NCBI GenBank assembly: GCA_020631435.1
Contig: JAHDHG010000007.1
Coordinates: 1-34,500, forward strand
Length of the DNA stretch: 34,500 bases
Reading direction: 5' to 3'
From: Bacteriovoracaceae bacterium
GTDB taxonomy: Bacteria > Bdellovibrionota > Bacteriovoracia > Bacteriovoracales > Bacteriovoracaceae
Part shown: positions 14,454 to 32,204 of the stretch, piece after piece
How positions within the stretch are numbered: the stretch's first letter is position 1
Layout: the number at the start of each line of letters is the position of its first letter
The notes under the pieces: model-generated
The model's database searches: none
Seen by the model: only the letters and a program-made list of their open reading frames with translations
What the model was told of the DNA's origin: nothing
Program-made: the position numbers and the translations under genes

Positions 14454-15328
14454 TAAAGGTTAATTAAGACTGATGAAGTAATCTCTCTTAGTTTTTCATC
14501 TTTAGATAATATAGACTTTAGTGAATCATCATTTGATGTTAAGTCTCTAAATCCAATATCAAGAGTAAGCTTTCCACCTGTCCAGCCTAGTCCAGCGGAA
14601 TACCCTTTCAAGTTTTCAAATTTATCAACTTTATATCCAGCTCTTGCTGTAAAGTTATCCATGAAAGTTAACTGAGCTCCAAACTTATATAATAGAGTAT
14701 CTGATAATTTAAATTTATAGTTATATCCGGCATCTGCAAGTAATTGGATAGTATCTGAAACATGATAAGCAAATCCTAGCGCCCCTAAAGTTTTTTGATC
14801 TTTGTAAGTGTTGTATAAATCATTTACGACAATTCCAAATGTTGTTTTTGGATTAGCTACCATGTTAAAACCAAAATTACTTTGGTGCTTTTTAATTTTC
14901 TTCTTTGTGATTTCATTTTTATCAATCGTGTAGAAGTGAGTTACTCCCATAGAAGTCTTTTGAGTAAATGGTGAGCTCATATTAATAGCAAATCTATTTC
15001 TTTTTATTGCTCCCTCTGAGTAGTTTTGATACATAATTGCACCACTGGCTACCTCGGTAGAATCAATAACTGCTAAAGTTAGACCATCAAGCTCATCATC
15101 TTCAGATCTTTTAATCGTAGAGTCTGAGAACGAACTCATGTTGTACCCAGCAAAAAAGGAACTATTTCTAACAAAAGCGGAACTTGCTGGATTTAGCTGT
15201 AAGCTATCTACAGAAACTATTGATCCTACACCGGCTCCAGAAGTAGATAGGGTTTGAGTACTCTCCATATCTCTTATAGTGGAAGCATAAATAAATTGTG
15301 ATAAAGTAAATAAAATTAAAATTTTCAT
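14453..15328 (-). CDS. Probable outer-membrane beta-barrel protein (PorV/FadL-like style)
   Basis: Likely true start MKILILFTLSQFIYAS (signal peptide) rather than the upstream start in the track. GAGVGSIVSVDSLQLNPASSAF N-terminus and alternating barrel-like strands. Confidence 0.65.
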   Translation of the reverse strand: MKILILFTLSQFIYASTIRDMESTQTLSTSGAGVGSIVSVDSLQLNPASSAFVRNSSFFAGYNMSSFSDSTIKRSEDDELDGLTLAVIDSTEVASGAIMYQNYSEGAIKRNRFAINMSSPFTQKTSMGVTHFYTIDKNEITKKKIKKHQSNFGFNMVANPKTTFGIVVNDLYNTYKDQKTLGALGFAYHVSDTIQLLADAGYNYKFKLSDTLLYKFGAQLTFMDNFTARAGYKVDKFENLKGYSAGLGWTGGKLTLDIGFRDLTSNDDSLKSILSKDEKLREITSSVLINL

Positions 15329-15393
15329 GAAGAAAGTATAAGAATTAAAATCGATCATGAAAATCAAATGAAAGAACTTATTTTAAAAATAGA

Positions 15394-19670: not shown

Positions 19671-19721
19671 TCAATTACATAATATTTCTGTAGTTAATTA
19701 ATATACTATAGGAGATTGCGA

Positions 19722-21164
19722 TTGAAATCCCACATTTTTATTGTTTTGAGTTTCTTACTATCTTTATCAAGCTTTGCGACTACTGCTAATTTTAAAGGAT
19801 CAATTGCTGTTGAGACTTCAAGAATTCACGATTACAAGAGAGCAGACAAGGCAACCGGTGCTCCTTTTGCTTTTGGATCAGGAAGCGAAGAAGTTTTTGG
19901 AAACTCTGATAACGCAGAAATTCAATCCTTTATTTTCAGGTTAAATCCTGAGCTTATTATTAATGATCACGTGACAGTTTTCTCTGAATTGTCTTCTGGT
20001 CATGCTAGAGGTGGAAAGATTGGTGGAAATGGAAATACAGCAAACCAAGTTGGAAATTTTGGAGGAAGATTTTTTCAATCAGCACCTACAAGTGACGATA
20101 CTCTTCATATCAATCAAGCTTATATGGAAATTTATTCTGATATCGCCACTTTTAAAGTCGGTAGGTTTGCAAAGCATTGGGGGCTTGGTGCGGTTTTAAA
20201 TAATGGATCAAATGCAATGGATAGATTCATTTCTAGATATGATGGGATTGAAGGGCAATTTAGTGTTGGTAAATTATTTGTTACTCCTTATTGGTCAAAG
20301 ACAGATGGAACTCTTCATCATTTATCTGGATCAGTTAGAGATATGGGTGTTTCTGTTTTATACGATGATACAAATAATGATATGCAATTAGGTCTTCTTT
20401 GGAGTGAAAGAAAAGCAGGAAGTAGAGCGGGTTCAATGCAGCAATTTAACGGAACTCTTTTGCCTGTGAACGTAAGCGAATCAAGTATTAGAATGTTTGA
20501 TTTTTTCTATAAAAAAGACTGGAAAAATTTTGGTTTTGGTTTAGAGGTTCCATATCTTGATGGAGATGGTGCAAGTAATCTTTACGGAACAGCTGGCAGC
20601 ACAGATGGAATTCAATCAATTTCAGTAATTTTTGAAAGTTATTTCAATGTGAATTCAAATTTCTCTTTAGATTTTAAAGCAGGAATGGTGAGTGGAGATG
20701 ATTCTAGTAAAGAATTTTCTGCAATGTACTTAAATAATAATTACAAACTTGCAGAGCTTTTATTTTCTTATAACTTGCACGCTGTTGAAAATTCTCAGTT
20801 TAATGTTTTTGATGCCGCTGTAACGAATGCTACTTACGCAAAACTTGGTATGAATTATACTAAGGGCCAATGGACATGGAAGCTTGGACTTCTTTGGGCC
20901 AAGGCAAATGAAACTGCAGAGTCTGGTAAGCAAGCTTGGAATCATGATTTAGGATATGCTTATACTGCTGCTGCTAATCAAGATAGTGACTTAGGAATTG
21001 AAGCAGATCTTGGTTTTGATTATCAGTGGAATCCAAATTTAATGCTAAGTGGTTTTTTAAGTTATTATATGGTTGGAGATTATTACGCTTTTACCAATAC
21101 GGGTGCCAACCTTGATACTAAGAATCAGATAGGTGGCGGTTTAAGACTTGCTTTAGATTTCTAG
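19722..21164 (+). CDS. Outer-membrane beta-barrel/porin-like protein
   Basis: Signal peptide MKSHIFIVLSFLLSLSSFATT; repeated amphipathic strands; C-terminal GGGLRLALDF ending in aromatic F. TTG start at 19722 is better spaced from GGAG (19711-19714) than the track start at 19716. Confidence 0.75.
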   Translation: MKSHIFIVLSFLLSLSSFATTANFKGSIAVETSRIHDYKRADKATGAPFAFGSGSEEVFGNSDNAEIQSFIFRLNPELIINDHVTVFSELSSGHARGGKIGGNGNTANQVGNFGGRFFQSAPTSDDTLHINQAYMEIYSDIATFKVGRFAKHWGLGAVLNNGSNAMDRFISRYDGIEGQFSVGKLFVTPYWSKTDGTLHHLSGSVRDMGVSVLYDDTNNDMQLGLLWSERKAGSRAGSMQQFNGTLLPVNVSESSIRMFDFFYKKDWKNFGFGLEVPYLDGDGASNLYGTAGSTDGIQSISVIFESYFNVNSNFSLDFKAGMVSGDDSSKEFSAMYLNNNYKLAELLFSYNLHAVENSQFNVFDAAVTNATYAKLGMNYTKGQWTWKLGLLWAKANETAESGKQAWNHDLGYAYTAAANQDSDLGIEADLGFDYQWNPNLMLSGFLSYYMVGDYYAFTNTGANLDTKNQIGGGLRLALDF

Positions 21165-24100
21165 TTAAATGGGCTAAAGGGCTGATTTCCGTTAAAGCCA
21201 TAATTATTATATCCTGTTTGGCTAAATGAATCAGAGATATATTCATTTTGAATTGCTCCGCCTAGAGAAAGATTTGTAAGTCCTTCTCCGAAAGGTGTGT
21301 ATAGAGAACTCTCATTTCTATAGTTCTGTAGTGTAATGTTCGCAATCTGTTGACTTGCTAATCTGTTTTGTTCCATGGTGTTTGATAGAATTTGGTACAT
21401 ATTATCAAGCTCAGTATTTAAGAAGTCTATGCTGGATATAGAAGAGGAGGTGTCAGCTGTCTTTGCATCAGCAAACTCTTCAAGCTTGTTTTTTTCTTTG
21501 TAATAATCATAAAATTCACCAATGGTTTGATCATCTTGAGTTACCTTTGGAACCGAGTTTTTACATTCGTCTCTGTAATCTTTTTCTTTTAATAACTTAT
21601 CTCTTCTTTTCTCAAGAAATTTAATTCTTTGATTTAGCCCCTTATCATCATCTTCACTAAATTCAACAGAGCTTATTGGCTTAAAAACTTCTTCTTCGTT
21701 AATTTCAACATCTTCATCTTTTTTAATATCATTTAGATCTCTTAATTTTTTAAGTTGGCTTAAATGGAAATCAGTTTTCTCTACAGAGAGTTCACAGTTG
21801 ATAATTTGATCAATGGCCTTACATTTATTTAGTTTGCTTTCTAATTCTTTTTTATCGCTTTTGATGTTGTCTAAATTGTTCGAGTTGTTAATGTCAGTAA
21901 TTTTAGTAATACCTCTTAATGTTCCAATCGCATCTAAAAGATTTTTTTGAATGCTTGAATCTTTGACATACATTGCAGAGTTTTCTAACTTTTGAAGATT
22001 TGATTTTGAATATTTATTTTTAACATAATTTACAATTTTGATATATCTAGCTTTTGATTTTCCTTTGTTACCATTTGTTTCAGAATGATAAGTAGCATGG
22101 GAAGCAGATAATTTGCTTAATATCTTATTAGCTTGAGAATTTATCTTGTTTGCAAAATCTTCAGTGGAAAGATTTCCAATATTTTCAATTTGATTTGATA
22201 ATGAGTTTAGTTGTAATTTTTTTCTAAATTCTTGAAGATCTTTTGTTGGTATGTCTTCAGCAGAGCATTCTCTAGGATCTATGTCTGAAATTTTAATTCC
22301 TTTACTTTTATTATTTGGAACTTTGCTGTCAATGATTTCATTGTCTTCACCTAGCTTTATATAGATATCTTCAAAAACATCGGTAAAATCACCAGTGATT
22401 AAAGATCTTGGGTCAAGGCAATTTACAATATTACTAATTTCATCATCTTTATCTAAGATAAGGCTTGCATCATAACTTTCGCCTCCTCCAAAGCAAGCTT
22501 CTTTTTGTTTTGGATCATCAAATGCAGGGATATGAATAAGGTTATCTAGTGAATCATAATCATTAAAATCAAAATCTTTTGAAGATTTTTCAAGATTTAA
22601 ATCCTTCATTATTGCATTGTTTAATCTATTCGATCTGCTTTCTTTGGTGCCTTCTTTGTCTTTAAATAAATCTGTGAATTTATTAAAAATATTACCTCTA
22701 GCTTTTTTATTAACATTAAATTTTTCAATATTCTCAGTATAATCTTTTAAGCAATTTCCAATTAAAGAGCTAGGGTCAAATGTATCATCTGTATTAATAA
22801 TTTTTTGGAATTTTTTAGATTTAGATTTAAAAAAAGCAGAATAAATATTTATGTCGCCTCCTCCTTGAATATTGTCGGCTTCAATCTCGTTAAGACAATT
22901 CTTTGGAAAACCTTTGAAGGAAACTTTTAACTGGCTACTTCCAATTGGTTTATGCATCTCTATTTTAGGGAGAGAGTTCTCACTGTCTAATTGCTTTATT
23001 AGATAAGCAATTTGAGCCTCATAATCGTTATTTTTGTTCTTTTGTGATTGATCTAAAAGATTTTCTATAGAAGCCTTCAGCTTGTCTTTTATTTCTTCGT
23101 TCATCTTATTAGCAAATTGACTCATCGCTTGTAATGAAGCAGTTTTATAATCTTCCTTTTCAAAACATCGTCTTGGCACTGATTCTTCAAAGCATATTAC
23201 TTGTTCATCATCGACATTTTCTTTTACTGCCCAAGTGGGATTGATTTTAATCCATCCACTTGGCTTGGGTTTTGAGCAATCTTCTGGGTTTTTGATTATA
23301 TTTATTGAAGTATTTTCTTCACTTGAAACAGAGGTGTTTTCATCTGAGCTATCGCTTGTTTCGCCTATGTTATTTTTATTAATAGAAGCAACGTTTCTAT
23401 CAGTCTTTTCTTCACTACTCTCATTGAAGAGCTCTTTAATTAATTCTTTTTCATCAGTAGCCTCTACATTACCTTTATTATTTGAAACTATGATGGGGTC
23501 ATCGTATTCATCTGATCCACCAGAAGAGTCTGTAACTCCATTGCTATCCGAATCATATTCTCCTAAGCTAATTTGGCTTGAAGGTTTATTGAATACATTT
23601 AATTCATCAAATTGAATAGAGTTTGGATAAAAGTTAGCCGTTCTGTAGTTATAGGAATTTGGGAACAATATATCATTTGGTGCAAAAGTTGGTGTGTCTC
23701 TAGGATTTTTTCTTTTGTTTAATGAGTATAGCCAAGGATTTGTATTATTGCTCGCTCCTGTAAAATTTAGAGAGCCTGCATTATTGTTCTGATCCTTGGT
23801 TCTAGTTGCAATTTTTTCTTCATTAAATTCAATTGTATTTATCTTGGGTGCTTTTGAAATACTTGTTTTCTCTATTGCTTTAATTTCTTTGGTAATATTA
23901 AGTTCGTCTTCGATAAATTTACTACTTACTGTTTTATAATCAGAAGGATCATTGTCAGCTTCAGCAGGATTGTCTTTTCTGTTTTCTAAATATTTTATTC
24001 CCGCCTCAGTAAGATAAGGTTTCCCATTAATTATTTTATGAAGATTATCACCTGAATTATTTGTCAATGGTAATTGATATGAATATCTAAAAAGGTGTTC

Positions 24101-24385
24101 TAGTTTTGCTGGTTCAATCTGAAGATTTCCTTTCTTCTCTTCTGCAATAATCATTGAAGCGATTTGTCTTTTTTTAATTCTTTTTAAGTGATTTAATTTT
24201 TTTTCTTTAAATTCTTTTCGATCTTTAGATATAGTTTCTAATTCTTTTTCTGTTTGAGAAATTTCGTCATTCGTTCTTTGTATTGCTTTAGCTAAAGGCG
24301 AGTCAGGCATTTTAAAGTTGGAAGAACCAGATAACCCATAGGTATTAAGAGTAAATAAAAAAATAAATGTGATTATTATATTCAC
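21161..24385 (-). CDS. Large secreted coiled-coil-rich hypothetical protein
   Basis: 1074-aa ORF, GTG start, signal peptide MNIIITFIFLFTLNTYGLSG, then long charged coiled-coil-like and low-complexity Ser/Asp/Glu segments and a G/N/Y/F-rich C-terminus. No family recognised. Confidence 0.75.
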   Translation of the reverse strand: MNIIITFIFLFTLNTYGLSGSSNFKMPDSPLAKAIQRTNDEISQTEKELETISKDRKEFKEKKLNHLKRIKKRQIASMIIAEEKKGNLQIEPAKLEHLFRYSYQLPLTNNSGDNLHKIINGKPYLTEAGIKYLENRKDNPAEADNDPSDYKTVSSKFIEDELNITKEIKAIEKTSISKAPKINTIEFNEEKIATRTKDQNNNAGSLNFTGASNNTNPWLYSLNKRKNPRDTPTFAPNDILFPNSYNYRTANFYPNSIQFDELNVFNKPSSQISLGEYDSDSNGVTDSSGGSDEYDDPIIVSNNKGNVEATDEKELIKELFNESSEEKTDRNVASINKNNIGETSDSSDENTSVSSEENTSINIIKNPEDCSKPKPSGWIKINPTWAVKENVDDEQVICFEESVPRRCFEKEDYKTASLQAMSQFANKMNEEIKDKLKASIENLLDQSQKNKNNDYEAQIAYLIKQLDSENSLPKIEMHKPIGSSQLKVSFKGFPKNCLNEIEADNIQGGGDINIYSAFFKSKSKKFQKIINTDDTFDPSSLIGNCLKDYTENIEKFNVNKKARGNIFNKFTDLFKDKEGTKESRSNRLNNAIMKDLNLEKSSKDFDFNDYDSLDNLIHIPAFDDPKQKEACFGGGESYDASLILDKDDEISNIVNCLDPRSLITGDFTDVFEDIYIKLGEDNEIIDSKVPNNKSKGIKISDIDPRECSAEDIPTKDLQEFRKKLQLNSLSNQIENIGNLSTEDFANKINSQANKILSKLSASHATYHSETNGNKGKSKARYIKIVNYVKNKYSKSNLQKLENSAMYVKDSSIQKNLLDAIGTLRGITKITDINNSNNLDNIKSDKKELESKLNKCKAIDQIINCELSVEKTDFHLSQLKKLRDLNDIKKDEDVEINEEEVFKPISSVEFSEDDDKGLNQRIKFLEKRRDKLLKEKDYRDECKNSVPKVTQDDQTIGEFYDYYKEKNKLEEFADAKTADTSSSISSIDFLNTELDNMYQILSNTMEQNRLASQQIANITLQNYRNESSLYTPFGEGLTNLSLGGAIQNEYISDSFSQTGYNNYGFNGNQPFSPFN

Positions 24386-24584: not shown

Positions 24585-24692
24585 TAAAACTGTAGTACGT
24601 AAGTCGGTCAAAAAATCGAAGACTATAAATTTATATAAAAAGAGGCTAGAATTATGGGGACATTAATTTCTATACTTCACGAAAAGGACTTT

Positions 24693-27600
24693 ATGAAGGC
24701 GTTAGTTTTATCAACACTTTTATTTTTAATTGGTTGTTCTAATCAAAATGCAAATCTTTTTGATCCAGGACAAACATCGGGAACATTTCCTGCAAATTCA
24801 TGCGTAGCTACTTGTAAACATGTAGACGGATTAAATTATGACGTTAGCACACTTACTATTGAAGCAGGTGCTTGTCAGTTCAGTGCTTGTTTGGATCCAA
24901 ACTTTGCAGAGAATTCAAAAGCTACAGAGTATCAAGCATATATAGATGCTCATGGAGGAACTCTTGTTCACGATGCTTCTAAATGTTACACGACTAAAAC
25001 TTATGGAACAGGTTGTCCTTATCAAGGAGCCTTAAACTATACAGCAGCTTCACAGACTCCTGGAACTTGTGACTTTAGAGCTTGTACAGATCCAGACTAT
25101 ATGGAATATTGGCAATATTTAGGGATGCAAGCTTATGAAGCAGCTTATCCAGGAGGAACAATTACTTCTGATCCATCTTTATGTTTAACAAAATTTTCTG
25201 GATGTAAATCTACTAGTCAATACGTTACAAATTTTGAAAGCGGTGTTCTTTTCGATGATGGTTCATGTAACTTTGATGCTTGTACACAGAAAGGTTATCA
25301 ATATTATGATGTAGCTGAAGAGACTGCGATTAATTCATATAAATCTTCACTTGGAAATTGTAGACCTTTTACTGGTACAGTGACTCAAAATTGTGGAGGT
25401 CTTTTAGGATGTGCTTTCCAGCATGCTAGTAATTATAATACTAATGCTGAAGTTGAAAATGGAACTTGTAACATCTCTTGTTGTTCTACTGTTGGATATG
25501 AAAACTTCGATGCTAATTGTCAGGCGAATATAGCTGCTTATCAATCATTATTAACTAGCTTAGGTGTAACTCTTACTGGAACTTTAGATTCTGCAGCAGA
25601 TTGTGGAAAAGCTCTAGGTTGTTATTTCCAAAATCAACATGTTTCAAATTATAATGCTCAAGCCAAAGAAGATGGTTCATGTGATATTAGATGTTGTGGT
25701 GACCAGACTGCAATTAACTACGATCAGTCTTGTCAGCAAGCTATTAATACTTATCAACAAACTCTTGCTGGCTTAGGAGTTACTCATACAGGTGTCTATG
25801 ATACATATGCTGGATGCCAATATCCTACTCCAGGATGTGCTTATCAACATGCTTATGTCACAAACTGGCAGCCTCACAAAGTTGAAGATGGCTCATGTGA
25901 TATTCAATGTTGTGGAACTCAGGGTTATGAAAACTATGATCCAAACTGCCAAGTTGTAGTCAATCAGTATACACAAGCAGCAGGTGGTTCAACATCTGGA
26001 AATATAAATACTAACTATCAATGTGGTAAAAAATTAGGTTGTTACTTCCAGAATCAATTTGTTTCTAACTATGATCAAAACTCTATTGAAAATGGATCTT
26101 GTAATATTCAGTGTTGTGCTCAGCAAGGATATGCAAACTATGATCCGCTTTGTGCTCAGGCAGTAAGCCAATATCAATCACTTCTACAATCACTTGGTTT
26201 AACACAGTCAGGCGCTATCAATACAAGTTATAATTGTGGGCCGCAACTTGGATGTAATTACAATGATTCCTTAGGAACTGGTTATGTTTTAAATTATAAT
26301 CAGGGTGCTCAAGAAGATGGATCTTGTAATATTCAATGTTGTGCTGATCCAAATGCTCAGTACTATGATCCAAAATGTCAGCAAGTTATCAATGGATATA
26401 CTCATACTCCAAAAATTGGAAACATTAATGATAGATTTGGATGTGGTCAAACTTTAGGTTGTTCTTATAATGCTTCAGGTGTTCAAAATTATGCAGCCGG
26501 AACAAGTGAAAATGGATCTTGTAATATAGCATGTTGTTCTACTCCTGGATTTGAAAACTATAGTGCAGCTTGTGCTTCAACTGTGAATGGTTACTCTCAA
26601 TTATTAGCAAGTTTAAATATGGCTCCAAGTGGAGTAATTGATCAGGATTACAATTGTGGAAGAAAGAAAGGTTGTACAAATTCTTACGCTTCTAACTACG
26701 ATGCTACAGCTCAACTAGAAGATGGAAGTTGTAATATTGCTTGTAGAGTATGTCCTGCAGGATATTCTCTTTCAACAGATCAAGCATGTGTAACTGCACA
26801 AAACCAATATACTCAATATATTGCGAGCTTAGGCCTAACATCAACTGGAAGTATTTCTACAACTAGTAGTTGTGGATCTGTTCAAGGGTGTGCTTACAAC
26901 GATACAAGAGTAACGAATTATAATTCGCAAGCTCAAGAAAATGGAAGCTGTAATATTTCGTGTTGTGCTAGCCCTGGATATCAAAACTATGATCCAAACT
27001 GTCAAAGTGCTATTGATTCATATTCAGCTTCATTGGCTGCTCTTGGTTTAACGGGATCAGGTATTTTAAATAATAATTATCTTTGTGGTGGCTACGCAGG
27101 ATGTACTTATGCTTCTCAATATACAACTGTTACTCCAGGTGCAACTGTAGAAGATGGAAGTTGTTCTATTAACTGTTGTGCGGATTCATCTAAGTCAAAT
27201 TATGATCCAAACTGTCAGGGTGCAATTAATGCGTATACTTCATTAATTAATGGATTGACTCCTACTGGAACAATTTCAAATAGTGCAAACTGTGGAATTG
27301 ATGTTGGTTGTAGTTATAACAATTCTTATGCAAGTAACTATGAAGCTAATACTCAAGAAAACGGAAGTTGTAATATTGCTTGTTGTGCACTTCAGGGTTA
27401 TGAAAACTATGATCCGAACTGTGCTACTGCAATTTCTGGATATCAAAGTTTCTTAGCAAGTTTAGGATTATCTTCAAATGGTTCTGTTAACAGTAGTTAT
27501 AACTGTGGAGCTCAACTTGGATGTTCTCAACCTAATCTTGTTGGTTCAAATGGACAGCCTGGAAATGCTTCTTATGTAGAAGATGGATCTTGTAATGTTC

Positions 27601-28319
27601 AGTGTTGTTCTAATCCAAATAGTGCAAACTATGATCCAAACTGTCAGGCAAAGATTAATTCTTATTCTCAGCTTCTTGCAGGATTGAGTATTACTCCTAC
27701 TGGTCAGATTGACAGTGCTTTTAATTGTGGTGCTCCTCTTGGTTGTAGTGATAATAGACCAGGAGTATATGTGAGTAATTTCTTATATGGTGCTCAAGAG
27801 AATGGTTCTTGTAATATTCAATGTTGTGGAACTGCAGGTTATGAATTTTATAATCAAAACTGCCAGGCTTATATTTCTAATTATCAGCAACTTCTTGCAA
27901 GCGCTGGTTTAAGTGCTACTGGTTTACTGGATAGTAATTATAACTGTGGTAGAAAGATTGGATGTACTGATCAGTATGCAATGAATTATGATCCTTCTGC
28001 TCAGCATGATCCAAATAACTCATGTATCTTTAAGGCATGTTTGACTCCTGGATATGAAAACTATGCAAGTGACCAACCAATTAGAGATGCTTATGCAGCT
28101 TATGGATCACCTGTTGGTCAGTTATATGCTGGTCCATGTGGAAATAAAATTTGTCCTGCTGGTTTTATCCCTGTAGGAAACACATGTCAGTGTCCTACTG
28201 GTCAAGTTTTATGTCATGGTCAATGTCTAAACTCTTGTCCTGCCGGATACATTGAGCAAAATGGTACTTGCGTTTGTGCACCAGGTACTTATCAAAATAG
28301 TAGCGGCTATTGCGAATAA
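24693..28319 (+). CDS. Giant cysteine-rich tandem-repeat lipoprotein, copy 1
   Basis: Internal start MKALVLSTLLFLIGCSNQN gives a canonical lipobox (LIGC) and an AAAAGGA SD; the track start at 24654 adds 13 residues. Fourteen Cys modules: GC...NYD...EDGSCNIxCC-x11-C...Y..LLASLGL..G.I...NCG, then a CPAG/C-rich C-terminus. Confidence 0.92.
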   Translation: MKALVLSTLLFLIGCSNQNANLFDPGQTSGTFPANSCVATCKHVDGLNYDVSTLTIEAGACQFSACLDPNFAENSKATEYQAYIDAHGGTLVHDASKCYTTKTYGTGCPYQGALNYTAASQTPGTCDFRACTDPDYMEYWQYLGMQAYEAAYPGGTITSDPSLCLTKFSGCKSTSQYVTNFESGVLFDDGSCNFDACTQKGYQYYDVAEETAINSYKSSLGNCRPFTGTVTQNCGGLLGCAFQHASNYNTNAEVENGTCNISCCSTVGYENFDANCQANIAAYQSLLTSLGVTLTGTLDSAADCGKALGCYFQNQHVSNYNAQAKEDGSCDIRCCGDQTAINYDQSCQQAINTYQQTLAGLGVTHTGVYDTYAGCQYPTPGCAYQHAYVTNWQPHKVEDGSCDIQCCGTQGYENYDPNCQVVVNQYTQAAGGSTSGNINTNYQCGKKLGCYFQNQFVSNYDQNSIENGSCNIQCCAQQGYANYDPLCAQAVSQYQSLLQSLGLTQSGAINTSYNCGPQLGCNYNDSLGTGYVLNYNQGAQEDGSCNIQCCADPNAQYYDPKCQQVINGYTHTPKIGNINDRFGCGQTLGCSYNASGVQNYAAGTSENGSCNIACCSTPGFENYSAACASTVNGYSQLLASLNMAPSGVIDQDYNCGRKKGCTNSYASNYDATAQLEDGSCNIACRVCPAGYSLSTDQACVTAQNQYTQYIASLGLTSTGSISTTSSCGSVQGCAYNDTRVTNYNSQAQENGSCNISCCASPGYQNYDPNCQSAIDSYSASLAALGLTGSGILNNNYLCGGYAGCTYASQYTTVTPGATVEDGSCSINCCADSSKSNYDPNCQGAINAYTSLINGLTPTGTISNSANCGIDVGCSYNNSYASNYEANTQENGSCNIACCALQGYENYDPNCATAISGYQSFLASLGLSSNGSVNSSYNCGAQLGCSQPNLVGSNGQPGNASYVEDGSCNVQCCSNPNSANYDPNCQAKINSYSQLLAGLSITPTGQIDSAFNCGAPLGCSDNRPGVYVSNFLYGAQENGSCNIQCCGTAGYEFYNQNCQAYISNYQQLLASAGLSATGLLDSNYNCGRKIGCTDQYAMNYDPSAQHDPNNSCIFKACLTPGYENYASDQPIRDAYAAYGSPVGQLYAGPCGNKICPAGFIPVGNTCQCPTGQVLCHGQCLNSCPAGYIEQNGTCVCAPGTYQNSSGYCE
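25410..27965 (+). repeat. Intragenic array of six-Cys modules (modules 2-13 of copy 1)
   Basis: About 65-75 aa period; invariant C-x3-CC-x11-C core; strongly recurring nucleotide phrases such as GAAGATGGATCTTGTAATATTCAATGTTGT and TATGATCCAAACTGTCAG. Confidence 0.9.
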
Positions 28320-28329
28320 TACTTTTAAT

Positions 28330-28366
28330 GCTCACTAGGAATTAATTTCCTAGTGAGCCTTTTCTT
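28330..28366 (+). terminator. Rho-independent terminator between the two giant lipoprotein genes
   Basis: Perfect 12-bp inverted repeat GCTCACTAGGAA-ttaat-TTCCTAGTGAGC followed by CTTTTCTT. Confidence 0.85.
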
Positions 28367-28396
28367 ATAAAACTTATCAAGTAAAAAATTGTTATT

Positions 28397-28424
28397 TTGT
28401 TTATATCCTATAATTTGCTATAAT
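28397..28424 (+). promoter_or_regulatory. Sigma70-like promoter for copy 2
   Basis: TTGTTT-N16-TATAAT about 50 nt upstream of the ATG at 28473. Confidence 0.4.
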
Positions 28425-28472
28425 TTTATTGTTTCGTGACGGAGTCACTTTATTCATCATAGGAAGGAATCT

Positions 28473-31400
28473 ATGAATATATTTTTTAAATCTTTATTCT
28501 TATTTTTGTTAATTTTTAGTTGTTCTAAAGACACAAATGTTACTGCAGAACCAGGAAGTTCAGTTGTGCCAGCTGCAGCGGCAACATATTGTCAACATCC
28601 TGACTCAACACAATCATCTTGTTCGATTAATCCCGGCGAATGTGTTTTAAAAGCATGTAAAGATCCTAACTTTGTTGAATATATCTATGCTGAAGAATAT
28701 CAGTATTATGTAGATCAATACGGTGGAAGTGTTGAGCATGATCCTCTTCTTTGTAAAACATCTATCAGTTACGGAGAGTCTTGTGCTCATCCAGAAGCAA
28801 GTAATTACACTACAGCAGGACATCAAACTAGAGGAGCTTGTACATTTCAAGCTTGTGATAATCCTAATTTTAAAGAATATCATAAGTATAATTTCTATAG
28901 ATACTATGTCTCACAACATGGAGGGGAAGTAATTTCAAACCCTTCTTTATGTTTAACCAAAATTGGAGGATGTAAATTAAGCTCACCTTATGTTAGTAAT
29001 TTTGATGCTGCTGCATGTGCTGATAATGGGAGTTGTATTTTTACAGGTTGTAATAAAAAAGAGTTTTCTAATTACGATGAAAACTTTGATCAATTTCTAG
29101 CAGATTACTTAGAGAGTTTAGATGGAGTTGCTTTTACGGGTTCTGTTAATTTAACTTGTTCAGGAGTTGGTGGATGTACGTCTCCTATTGCTAACAACAA
29201 AACTGACCAAGGACAGTGTGATTCATATGGAAAATGTGAATCAGTTAAAGAAAATGGAACTTGTAAGATTGAATGTTGTGGAATCCCTGGTCATGAAAAT
29301 TATTCAAAAGAGTGTGCAGATGGCGCAGCTGCTTATCAAGCATTATTAACCTCTCTAGGATTAACTCTCAAAGGTGTAATTAACATTAATCATCAATGTG
29401 GTGGAAAGCTAGGTTGCTCCATAGATAAGCATAATTGCTCAAATGGATATTCGGGAGCAAAAGAAAATGGAAGCTGTAATTTTAGATGTTGTGCGGATAA
29501 GGCTGCTTCAAATTACGATGCAAGTTGCGATAAAGATATTCAAAGTTATTTAGAGTTATTAGCAAGTCTTAAAATTCCACATACGGGAGTCATAGATAAG
29601 AAGTATGGATGTAACTATGTAATGAAAGGATGTAGTTTTTCTAGTTCTTATGTTTCAAATTATGTTCCAGGTGTAAAAGAAGATGGAAGTTGTGATATTG
29701 CCTGTTGTGCACTTTCTGGTTATGAAGGGTATTCAGAATCTTGCCAGGCAACGGTTGATGAATACAAAGGTACTTTAGGATCTATCGCTCATACAGGAGC
29801 TATAAAATTAGATTATAATTGTAAAAAGAAACTAGGTTGTAATTATAATCATTTTGCATCCAATTATGATGCTAACAGTAAAGAAAATGGAAGCTGTAAC
29901 TTTACTTGTTGTGCTACTGAAGGATATGAAAAATATGATCCAAGTTGCAAGGTTAAAATTGATTCTTATTTAGCAATGTTGGCTTCTATGAATATTGGTT
30001 TTGTAGGATCAATTGATAATAATCATCAATGTGGGAAAAAATTAGCTTGTAATTACAACGGTCCAAATTCAAGTTATGTAAAAAATTATATGCCAGATTC
30101 AGTTGAGGATGGATCGTGTGATATTCATTGTTGTGCTGATCAATCAAAGCCAAACTATCAACCTGACTGCCAGTCGACAATTAATGGTTATTCTCCAGGT
30201 GTTGTTAAAACTGGAAATATTAATTCAAGCTACAATTGTGGAGAAGTTAAAAAAGGATGCCACTTTAAAAATGATTATATAACAAATTATATGGATGATG
30301 TTAGTGAAGATGGATCTTGTGACATTACTTGTTGTAATAAACCGGGTTATGAAAATTATAGCTCAGCATGTGATATTGCAATAAATGCTTATAATTCAGT
30401 GTTACTAAGTTTAGGATTAAGTTCATCTGGGACTATCGTGACTGATGCTTGTGGAAAAAAGAAAGGTTGTACAGTTAGTTATGCAAGTAACTATGATTCA
30501 GAAGCTGAATTAGATGATGGATCTTGTATTATTTCTTGTAATCAATGTCCAAATGATTTCAATACAGATAGAAATTGCTTAAAAGCTCAACAAGATTACC
30601 AGACGATGCTTTCTTCTCAAAGCATTACACTAACAGGACAAATTATTATCACTAATAATTGTCCAACTGATGGATGTCACTTTAATCATCCACAAGTAAT
30701 GAATTATGATGCGAATGCAACTGAAGATGGATCTTGTGATATAAAATGTTGCTCTGATGATAAATTTGCAAATTATGATTCAAGTTGTTTGACTGTGATT
30801 GGTGCTTATCAATCTCTTCTTTCTAGCTTGAACTTAACGAGTTCTGGAACATTAGATAGCAATTATGATTGTAAAGGAATTAAAGGATGTACTAATCCTA
30901 AAGCAAGTAATTACAATAGTTCTGCAACAGTGGAAGATGGTAGTTGTTCATTCGAGTGTTGTTCAACGCAAGGTTCTGCAAACTATGATCCGAGTTGTCA
31001 GTCAACAATCGATTCTTATTTGAGTTCTCTAGGAGGAGCGACACATACAGGACAAATTAATAATACTCATGGTTGTACACCTCAAACAGGTTGTGCATAT
31101 AACCACAGTTATGTAGATAATTTTGAACAAGGTGTAAGCGAGGATGGATCTTGTAATATTAGATGTTGCTCAAATGAAGATTATGAGAATTATCAATCAG
31201 ATTGTGAGTCTGCTATTGAAGGGTACACACATAATCCTAAGACTGGAGTAATTGATAACGAGTATAATTGTGGTGAGAAATTAGGATGTAGTTATAAAAA
31301 TGCTTCAAATTATGATGGTGATGTTAAAGAAGATGGTTCTTGCATTATTAAATGTTGTTCTAAGAAAGGTCATGAAAATTTTGATCAAAGTTGTGATGAG

Positions 31401-32204
31401 AAGATTTCTGAGTATAACAAAATTTTAGCTGCTGCTGGAGTTGGAATAAGTACTGGTATGACTGATAACATGTATAATTGTGGACCAATGCTCGGGTGTA
31501 CTGATGCTAGACCTGGTAGTTATGTGAAGAATCTGCTTCCTAAGACTAATGACCTTCAAAAAGAAGATGGATCTTGTATTATTCATTGTTGTGGGAAGCC
31601 TGGATTTCAAAACTATGATCCAAACTGTAACTCTCACATAAGTAACTATCAAATCTTCATCGCTCAACTTGGATTAAGTGTTAGTGGTTCTTTAAGAAAT
31701 GATGTTAATTGTGGAGGAGTCATAGGTTGTATGGATCCATTGGCAGAAAATTATAATCCAAATGCAACAATAGATTCTAAGAAAGAATGTATTTTTAAAG
31801 CATGTAATATACCTGGAACTGAAAACTATGCTAAAGATAAGCCAATTAGAGATGCTTTCAATAGATATGGAAATGGTACTCTAAGGCCTTCAGACTGTGG
31901 AGATCCTATCCTTACTTGTAATAACGGTTTTAAGCCAAGTGGGAGTAAATGTATTTGTCCGTATCCAAAAGTGATTTTTAATAATCAATGTATCAATTCT
32001 TGTCCTGCCGGTTCTGGAATGACAATAATTAATACATCTACTGGAAGAATGTGTATTTGTGCTGGAGGAGGAAGTTATAATTCAGGATCAAATAATTGCG
32101 TTTTTCCGACAACGACAACAACTACTAGAGCGACTACTACAACGACTAGAAGACCTACAGGGACTACAACTGGAAGCTTTAGAAGAGGTGGATACAGAAG
32201 ATAA
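28473..32204 (+). CDS. Giant cysteine-rich tandem-repeat lipoprotein, copy 2, with Thr-rich/Arg-rich tail
   Basis: Lipobox MNIFFKSLFLFLLIFSCSKD; SD AGGAAGGA; the same 14-module Cys architecture as copy 1; C-terminus PTTTTTTRATTTTTRRPTGTTTGSFRRGGYRR. Confidence 0.93.
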   Translation: MNIFFKSLFLFLLIFSCSKDTNVTAEPGSSVVPAAAATYCQHPDSTQSSCSINPGECVLKACKDPNFVEYIYAEEYQYYVDQYGGSVEHDPLLCKTSISYGESCAHPEASNYTTAGHQTRGACTFQACDNPNFKEYHKYNFYRYYVSQHGGEVISNPSLCLTKIGGCKLSSPYVSNFDAAACADNGSCIFTGCNKKEFSNYDENFDQFLADYLESLDGVAFTGSVNLTCSGVGGCTSPIANNKTDQGQCDSYGKCESVKENGTCKIECCGIPGHENYSKECADGAAAYQALLTSLGLTLKGVININHQCGGKLGCSIDKHNCSNGYSGAKENGSCNFRCCADKAASNYDASCDKDIQSYLELLASLKIPHTGVIDKKYGCNYVMKGCSFSSSYVSNYVPGVKEDGSCDIACCALSGYEGYSESCQATVDEYKGTLGSIAHTGAIKLDYNCKKKLGCNYNHFASNYDANSKENGSCNFTCCATEGYEKYDPSCKVKIDSYLAMLASMNIGFVGSIDNNHQCGKKLACNYNGPNSSYVKNYMPDSVEDGSCDIHCCADQSKPNYQPDCQSTINGYSPGVVKTGNINSSYNCGEVKKGCHFKNDYITNYMDDVSEDGSCDITCCNKPGYENYSSACDIAINAYNSVLLSLGLSSSGTIVTDACGKKKGCTVSYASNYDSEAELDDGSCIISCNQCPNDFNTDRNCLKAQQDYQTMLSSQSITLTGQIIITNNCPTDGCHFNHPQVMNYDANATEDGSCDIKCCSDDKFANYDSSCLTVIGAYQSLLSSLNLTSSGTLDSNYDCKGIKGCTNPKASNYNSSATVEDGSCSFECCSTQGSANYDPSCQSTIDSYLSSLGGATHTGQINNTHGCTPQTGCAYNHSYVDNFEQGVSEDGSCNIRCCSNEDYENYQSDCESAIEGYTHNPKTGVIDNEYNCGEKLGCSYKNASNYDGDVKEDGSCIIKCCSKKGHENFDQSCDEKISEYNKILAAAGVGISTGMTDNMYNCGPMLGCTDARPGSYVKNLLPKTNDLQKEDGSCIIHCCGKPGFQNYDPNCNSHISNYQIFIAQLGLSVSGSLRNDVNCGGVIGCMDPLAENYNPNATIDSKKECIFKACNIPGTENYAKDKPIRDAFNRYGNGTLRPSDCGDPILTCNNGFKPSGSKCICPYPKVIFNNQCINSCPAGSGMTIINTSTGRMCICAGGGSYNSGSNNCVFPTTTTTTRATTTTTRRPTGTTTGSFRRGGYRR
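29172..31728 (+). repeat. Intragenic array of six-Cys modules (modules 2-13 of copy 2)
   Basis: Same C-x3-CC-x11-C core and module order as copy 1; sequence more diverged and more Lys/Asp/Glu-rich. Confidence 0.88.

Follow-up and report, generated by a model that had tools for sequence, protein, structure and literature searches.

TraA of Myxococcus carries Cys-rich tandem repeats (TIGR04201) that have been proposed to act as a rigid stalk, holding out a binding domain at the cell surface (PMC3325183). In Bdellovibrio bacteriovorus, Bd0875 is a MIDAS adhesin (PMC11003981). Studies have also described the MAT fibres of Bdellovibrio, which are intertwined trimeric beta-prisms with variable C-terminal tips (PMC10769870). 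In Bacteroidetes, a lipoprotein export signal (LES) near the lipidated Cys reads K-(D/E)2 or Q-A-(D/E)2 (PMC5080379). The present locus contains two neighboring genes for large Cys-module lipoprotein precursors, P1 and P2. These are like TraA in the idea of a Cys-repeat stalk; however, TraA starts with a PA14 domain and ends with a sorting tag, whereas P1 and P2 have a predicted N-terminal lipid anchor, and neither TIGR04201 itself nor other Cys repeats of NCBIfam matched P1 or P2 at E values up to 1. Bd0875 comes from the same phylum, and VWA/MIDAS domains with DxSxS are carried by paralogues of P1 and P2 but are absent from P1 and P2 in Pfam searches; a term search of PMC11003981 found a Cys-module stalk mentioned nowhere for Bd0875. 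The MAT fibres and the proposed stalks would both be large surface fibres, the former built of beta-prisms and the latter of disulfide-stapled modules, and no Pfam match to a trimeric beta-prism shaft with S74 or another MAT tip was obtained in P1 or P2.

The source genome is that of an uncultured bacterium of the Bacteriovoracaceae type, with a size of 2.43 Mb and a completeness of 88%, and the window (the whole stretch of DNA that was analyzed) is one contig of 34,500 bases. Four species of the genus were compared, i.e., the window genome and three further ones. The features of the locus are listed in the table. The ORF of P1 has an alternative open start (ATG at 24654), and its length is counted from the lipobox Met at 24693; an RBS-like sequence, AGGAAGGA, lies upstream of P2. 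Because of the intergenic hairpin with its T-rich tail, P1 and P2 are probably separate transcripts. Neighboring genes of the pair encode a secreted protein of 418 residues and ribose-phosphate pyrophosphokinase. In the genomes G001 and G003, which have a single P1/P2-type copy, that copy is also followed by an ORF of 418 residues that runs in its direction. Directly 3' of P2 in G002 lies a gene (L051:9422-10513) for a lipoprotein of the DsbA/thioredoxin-like type (PF13462, 7.8e-14). Upstream of P1 on the opposite strand, the window encodes a 1074-aa protein with a signal-peptide-like start (21161-24385) and without a family match in Pfam or NCBIfam. A 482-aa probable outer-membrane protein lies at 19716-21164 and shows a weak TIGR04551 match (1.7e-9, below the cut-off). 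The sole tandem repeat reported by TRF in the whole window, 2.1 copies of a 26-base unit, is at 15293-15351.

Table. Positions in the window of the features of the P1/P2 locus.
Feature	Position	Strand	Remarks
P1 lipoprotein precursor	24693..28319	+	1208 aa; 16 Cys modules and furin/EGF-like tail
P1 signal peptide, lipobox and post-lipobox signature (C-SNQ-NANLFDP)	24693..24791	+	signature common to paralogues
P1 six-Cys modules 1-6	25407..26666	+	
P1 variant module (CxxC for CC)	26670..26885	+	position equal in all homologues
P1 six-Cys modules 8-12 of series, five canonical	26886..27959	+	first three modelled, pLDDT 97.5
P1 terminal four-Cys module and Cys-rich tail	27960..28316	+	tail like furin-like Cys-rich repeats
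Terminator-like hairpin between P1 and P2	28330..28358	+	12 pairs and T-rich tail
P2 lipoprotein precursor	28473..32204	+	1243 aa; module order as P1; Thr-rich and Arg-rich C-terminal extension
P2 six-Cys modules 1-6	29172..30464	+	first with 2 and second with 1 Cys more than six
P2 variant module (CxxC)	30465..30671	+	
P2 six-Cys modules 8-12 of series, five canonical	30672..31724	+	
Bidirectional terminator-like hairpin 3' of P2	32214..32239	.	

Both ORFs, the lipoboxes, the module order 3+6+1+5+1 and the Cys-rich tail given in a preliminary description of this DNA have been found in P1 and P2. This order, consisting of three four-Cys-type modules, six six-Cys modules, one variant module, five six-Cys modules and one terminal four-Cys module ahead of the tail, sums to 16, and the 14 modules of the earlier title are wrong. 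The module that had been called aberrant is present but still contains six Cys, with CxxC in place of CC, and it is the seventh of the six-Cys series not only in P1 and P2 but also in their orthologues and in the giant paralogues examined. Of the six six-Cys modules that precede it in P2, the first contains 8 Cys and the second 7. An HMM built from the 24 six-Cys modules, as had been proposed, found this module series again in the orthologues, as well as in paralogues that are 2108-2277 aa long. The colinearity of P1 and P2 has been confirmed, with an equal-position score of 1900; permutations gave a mean of 1585 (sd 71), and none of 20,000 reached the observed score. Even so, the best match was the positional counterpart in no more than 5 of 13 modules.

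The six Cys columns are held in 116-120 of 120 homologous modules (those above 50 bits), in which the G before C1, the N before the aromatic residue and the G before C2 are also nearly fixed and the helix Tyr occurs in 120/120. Among six P1/P2-type homologues that are 39-75% identical, 97 of 109 Cys columns are invariant, compared with 196 of 1069 other full columns. The 97 consist of the lipid Cys, four in each of four four-Cys-type modules, six in each of twelve modules and eight in the tail. Without the lipid Cys they form an even set of 96, so that the conserved core can pair completely. Total Cys counts after the lipid Cys, taken from window 24693-28319 and 28473-32204 and from L040, L041 and L051, are odd in the P1/P2-type proteins (99 in four, 101 and 103 in the two P2) and even in the giant paralogues (134, 148, and 152). 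Between orthologues, the synonymous distance exceeds 1 and dN is 0.16-0.32; because dN/dS over the modules is ~0.15-0.28, P1 and P2 are maintained under purifying selection.

By sequence, the module grades into the four-Cys modules of the paralogues and the two-Cys motif of marine viruses and bacteria. In the four-Cys form (alignment A2), C2-x4-C stands where the six-Cys form has C2-x3-CC. The second Cys of the CC and the final Cys after the helix are common to both forms, and the six-Cys form has in addition the first C of the CC and a C twelve residues later. The second half of the module had been taken for an added subdomain, but the four-Cys paralogues already have the same helix-Tyr-Cys second half, and what was added in the six-Cys form is most likely one cystine. 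The motif GCTDxxAxNYDP...DDGSC, ascribed earlier to proteins of marine bacteria and giant viruses, has been confirmed for marine viruses and further genomes of the phylum; the instances found did not include giant viruses as such. Short tandem repeats of the two-Cys form are present in such further genomes, on six IMG/VR contigs and in the virion structural protein of Synechococcus phage S-CAM3; no Pfam model was found for the group, which has no named family. Most modules, including those of the four-Cys paralogues, have the Gly-Cys, Asn-aromatic and Asp/Glu-x-Gly-Ser-Cys elements at the spacing of this motif. The first half is thus alike in spacing, NY/NF and DGSC. The two-Cys repeats, however, fit 2 Cys into ~24-29 residues, whereas the modules of the present family span ~55-77 residues with 4 or 6 Cys and continue into a second half that contains a helix. 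The nested 2-, 4-, and 6-Cys series suggests the cystine pairing C1-C2 and C4-C6, with C3-C5 added last.

AlphaFold2 predicted a three-module segment of P1 with a pLDDT of 97.5 and a pTM of 0.75, at which the angles between modules are uncertain. Foldseek with this model gave no match at E <= 0.001 among 350,542 PDB chains; among predicted structures it matched three of viral origin (2.9e-6 to 7.8e-4). The PDB result is suggestive of a new fold without being proof of one, as small folds rich in Cys may be hard for Foldseek to match. Pfam, NCBIfam, PDB sequence and PDB fold searches yielded no described family, in agreement with the earlier statement that no named system matches. No Pfam-A model exceeded the gathering score in P1, and P2 gave only AF_0924 at 12.1 bits, below the cut-off of 27. 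Searches of PHROGs and Pfam with single four-Cys modules returned scattered weak matches only, and a literature search on the motif string returned unrelated matter only. Among PDB sequences, the matches of the six-Cys profile (A1) to NDUFB10 and of the four-Cys profile (A2) to MPEG1 had E values of 0.3-0.6 and were dismissed. The perforin-2/MPEG1 stretch (E 0.42 over 22 residues), which may lie in the EGF-like linker region, resembles the first half of the module and lacks the second half, and is kept as a lead with no claim of homology. A 44-bit match of Phage_connect_2 (Pfam) on a giant paralogue, in which no single stretch passes, was read as repeat-driven. Overall, the module family appears to be new and the architecture, a Cys-repeat stalk lipoprotein, to be of a known kind; no precedent was found in these searches for the six-Cys module.

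The tail of P1 was modelled from an alignment of six sequences with a pLDDT of 80. Its one PDB match at E <= 0.001 was the IGF-1R ectodomain (7.7e-4, TM 0.17), and the next, weaker values belonged to furin-like regions of the EGFR family and R-spondin. Because of these matches, the modelled cap is probably an ordinary kind of Cys-rich domain.

Profile searches place P1 and P2 in a larger family of lipoproteins that occurs mainly in this genus. The six-Cys profile matched 7 of the 369 genomes of the phylum at 1e-5. Within the phylum, long six-Cys arrays were restricted to the genus (4/4 species), and beyond it three of 365 genomes (G006, G108, and G137) had one or two weak modules each. The four-Cys profile matched 14 of the 369 genomes. 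A scan of 84,980 species with a P1 pattern returned only Bacteriovoracaceae bacterium MAG-111 RZ_1335, with the same contig as one species of the genus. A phage origin was rejected, as six-Cys modules had no match in phage records and the pattern E[ND]G[ST]Cx[IF]xCC had none in IMG/VR, and so was a plasmid origin, P2 having no match in plasmid records. The Cys-module lipoproteins of the genus also include proteins of 2,100-2,300 residues, four-Cys-only pairs and proteins ending in a VWA domain. In the latter, which are four-Cys paralogues, the best Pfam VWA_2 match is 3.2e-6 and DxSxS is present in 5/5 aligned; these matches are weak, with whole-protein scores below the Pfam gathering score, and the VWA tails gave none among PDB sequences at E 0.1. 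In G137, which belongs to another genus, four-Cys modules are followed by a DNSMS region (VWA-like by eye), a BNR propeller-like region, a weak Rax2 match and the sequence HEIFHGLGAPHTTH, the last read by eye. The giant paralogue of G002 (L039:2912-9238) has, by eye, a CxxCH sequence and dockerin-like DxNxDGxxxxxD repeats toward its C-terminus. In relatives the giant paralogue is a single ORF, but in G000 (C116; L032:3337-10183) a frameshift or assembly error has divided it into two ORFs (610 and 1674 aa) with an overlap of a few bases. An unrooted tree, to be read with caution because of long branches, placed P1 and the single copy of G001 and G003 on one side and P2 and the 2,100-2,300-residue paralogues on the other with a bootstrap of 100. 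Because of this grouping, P2 is probably not a recent copy of P1, and a recent tandem duplication is doubtful also in view of the hairpin between the genes.

Both precursors have a signal peptide and a lipobox ending in Cys (LLFLIGC|S in P1, with LIGC at residues 12-15, and LLIFSC|S in P2), and are predicted to be lipidated. In most family members, the residues directly behind the lipid Cys read N-x-[NH]-L-[FY]-D or TN[VI]. This signature is missing from most ordinary lipoproteins of the same loci and is present in some large lipoproteins of other make-up; together, the Cys-module and other large lipoproteins with the signature come from the loci L039, L042, L044-L049, L073, L078, and L079. 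These observations come from a small sample of selected loci, partly picked by a search with the same signature. The signature is a candidate export signal. It is like the Bacteroidetes LES in position and specificity but differs in its letters (PMC5080379), and the LES motif is absent from P1 (CSNQNANLFDP) and P2 (CSKDTNVTAEP). DsbA-type and VKOR-DsbA fusion proteins are encoded in all four species of the genus.

We consider it fairly probable that P1 and P2 are outer-membrane lipoprotein stalks of cystine-stapled modules whose tip would reach out from the cell and touch surfaces or other cells. The N-terminal lipid would anchor them in the outer membrane, and the mature part, a chain of small cystine-stapled modules, would form a stiff stalk ending in the furin/EGF-like Cys-rich cap. 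In the wider genus family, six- or four-Cys modules would serve as stalk or spacer and the C-terminus as the functional head (VWA/MIDAS in several paralogues), and the stalk would display its tip outside and bring it to surfaces or other cells. This reading is favored chiefly because the modules come first and the differing domain last in paralogues and relatives. A rod shape, surface exposure and an adhesive role are, on sequence grounds, probable. Adhesion is made plausible by the paralogues with a C-terminal VWA domain; against it, P1 and P2 themselves have neither a VWA nor another recognized binding domain. This lack of a head would suit a structural coat or matrix without specific binding, in which cystine-rich modules would withstand proteases and mechanical stress. 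The constant module number across species and the odd Cys count of 6/6 P1/P2-type proteins, which would permit intermolecular cystine, agree with such a coat, but the lipid anchor and the specificity of the modules for their positions point to a defined molecule, head domains occur on related proteins, and we regard the coat as unlikely.

Lipoproteins can face the periplasm, a lipobox by itself is no proof of surface export, and no exporter has been identified. P1 and P2 may therefore remain periplasmic as envelope spacers or ligand-binding proteins. We judge this very unlikely, since an extended 16-module chain would probably be longer than the periplasm is wide, the post-lipobox signature is mostly confined to large lipoproteins of this kind, and the VWA-bearing paralogues recall the MIDAS adhesin of a related predator (PMC11003981). 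Relatives within the Bacteriovoracaceae, known predators in the phylum and the type IV pilus retraction ATPase PilT in 4/4 species would fit prey-recognition fibres of a predatory lifestyle with a role equal to that of the MAT fibres. However, flagellin is found in 0/4 genomes, none of the findings establishes predation in the genus, and P1 and P2 have no MAT-type domain in Pfam, which makes such fibres distinctly improbable. A broader version of the preferred stalk reading, with a surface display system of the genus's own that combines a new module fold as stalk, a genus-specific export signature, interchangeable heads and odd-Cys cross-linking between stalks, is tentative and has a low chance of being right.

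The module family thus has a confidently predicted fold without a match among solved structures, and its nested 2-, 4-, and 6-Cys forms allow a stepwise gain of cystines to be read. If P1 and P2 are surface-exposed, a disulfide-built stalk would be added to the known surface contact proteins of the phylum, and through the post-lipobox signature the export of lipoproteins to the surface would become directly testable in this group.
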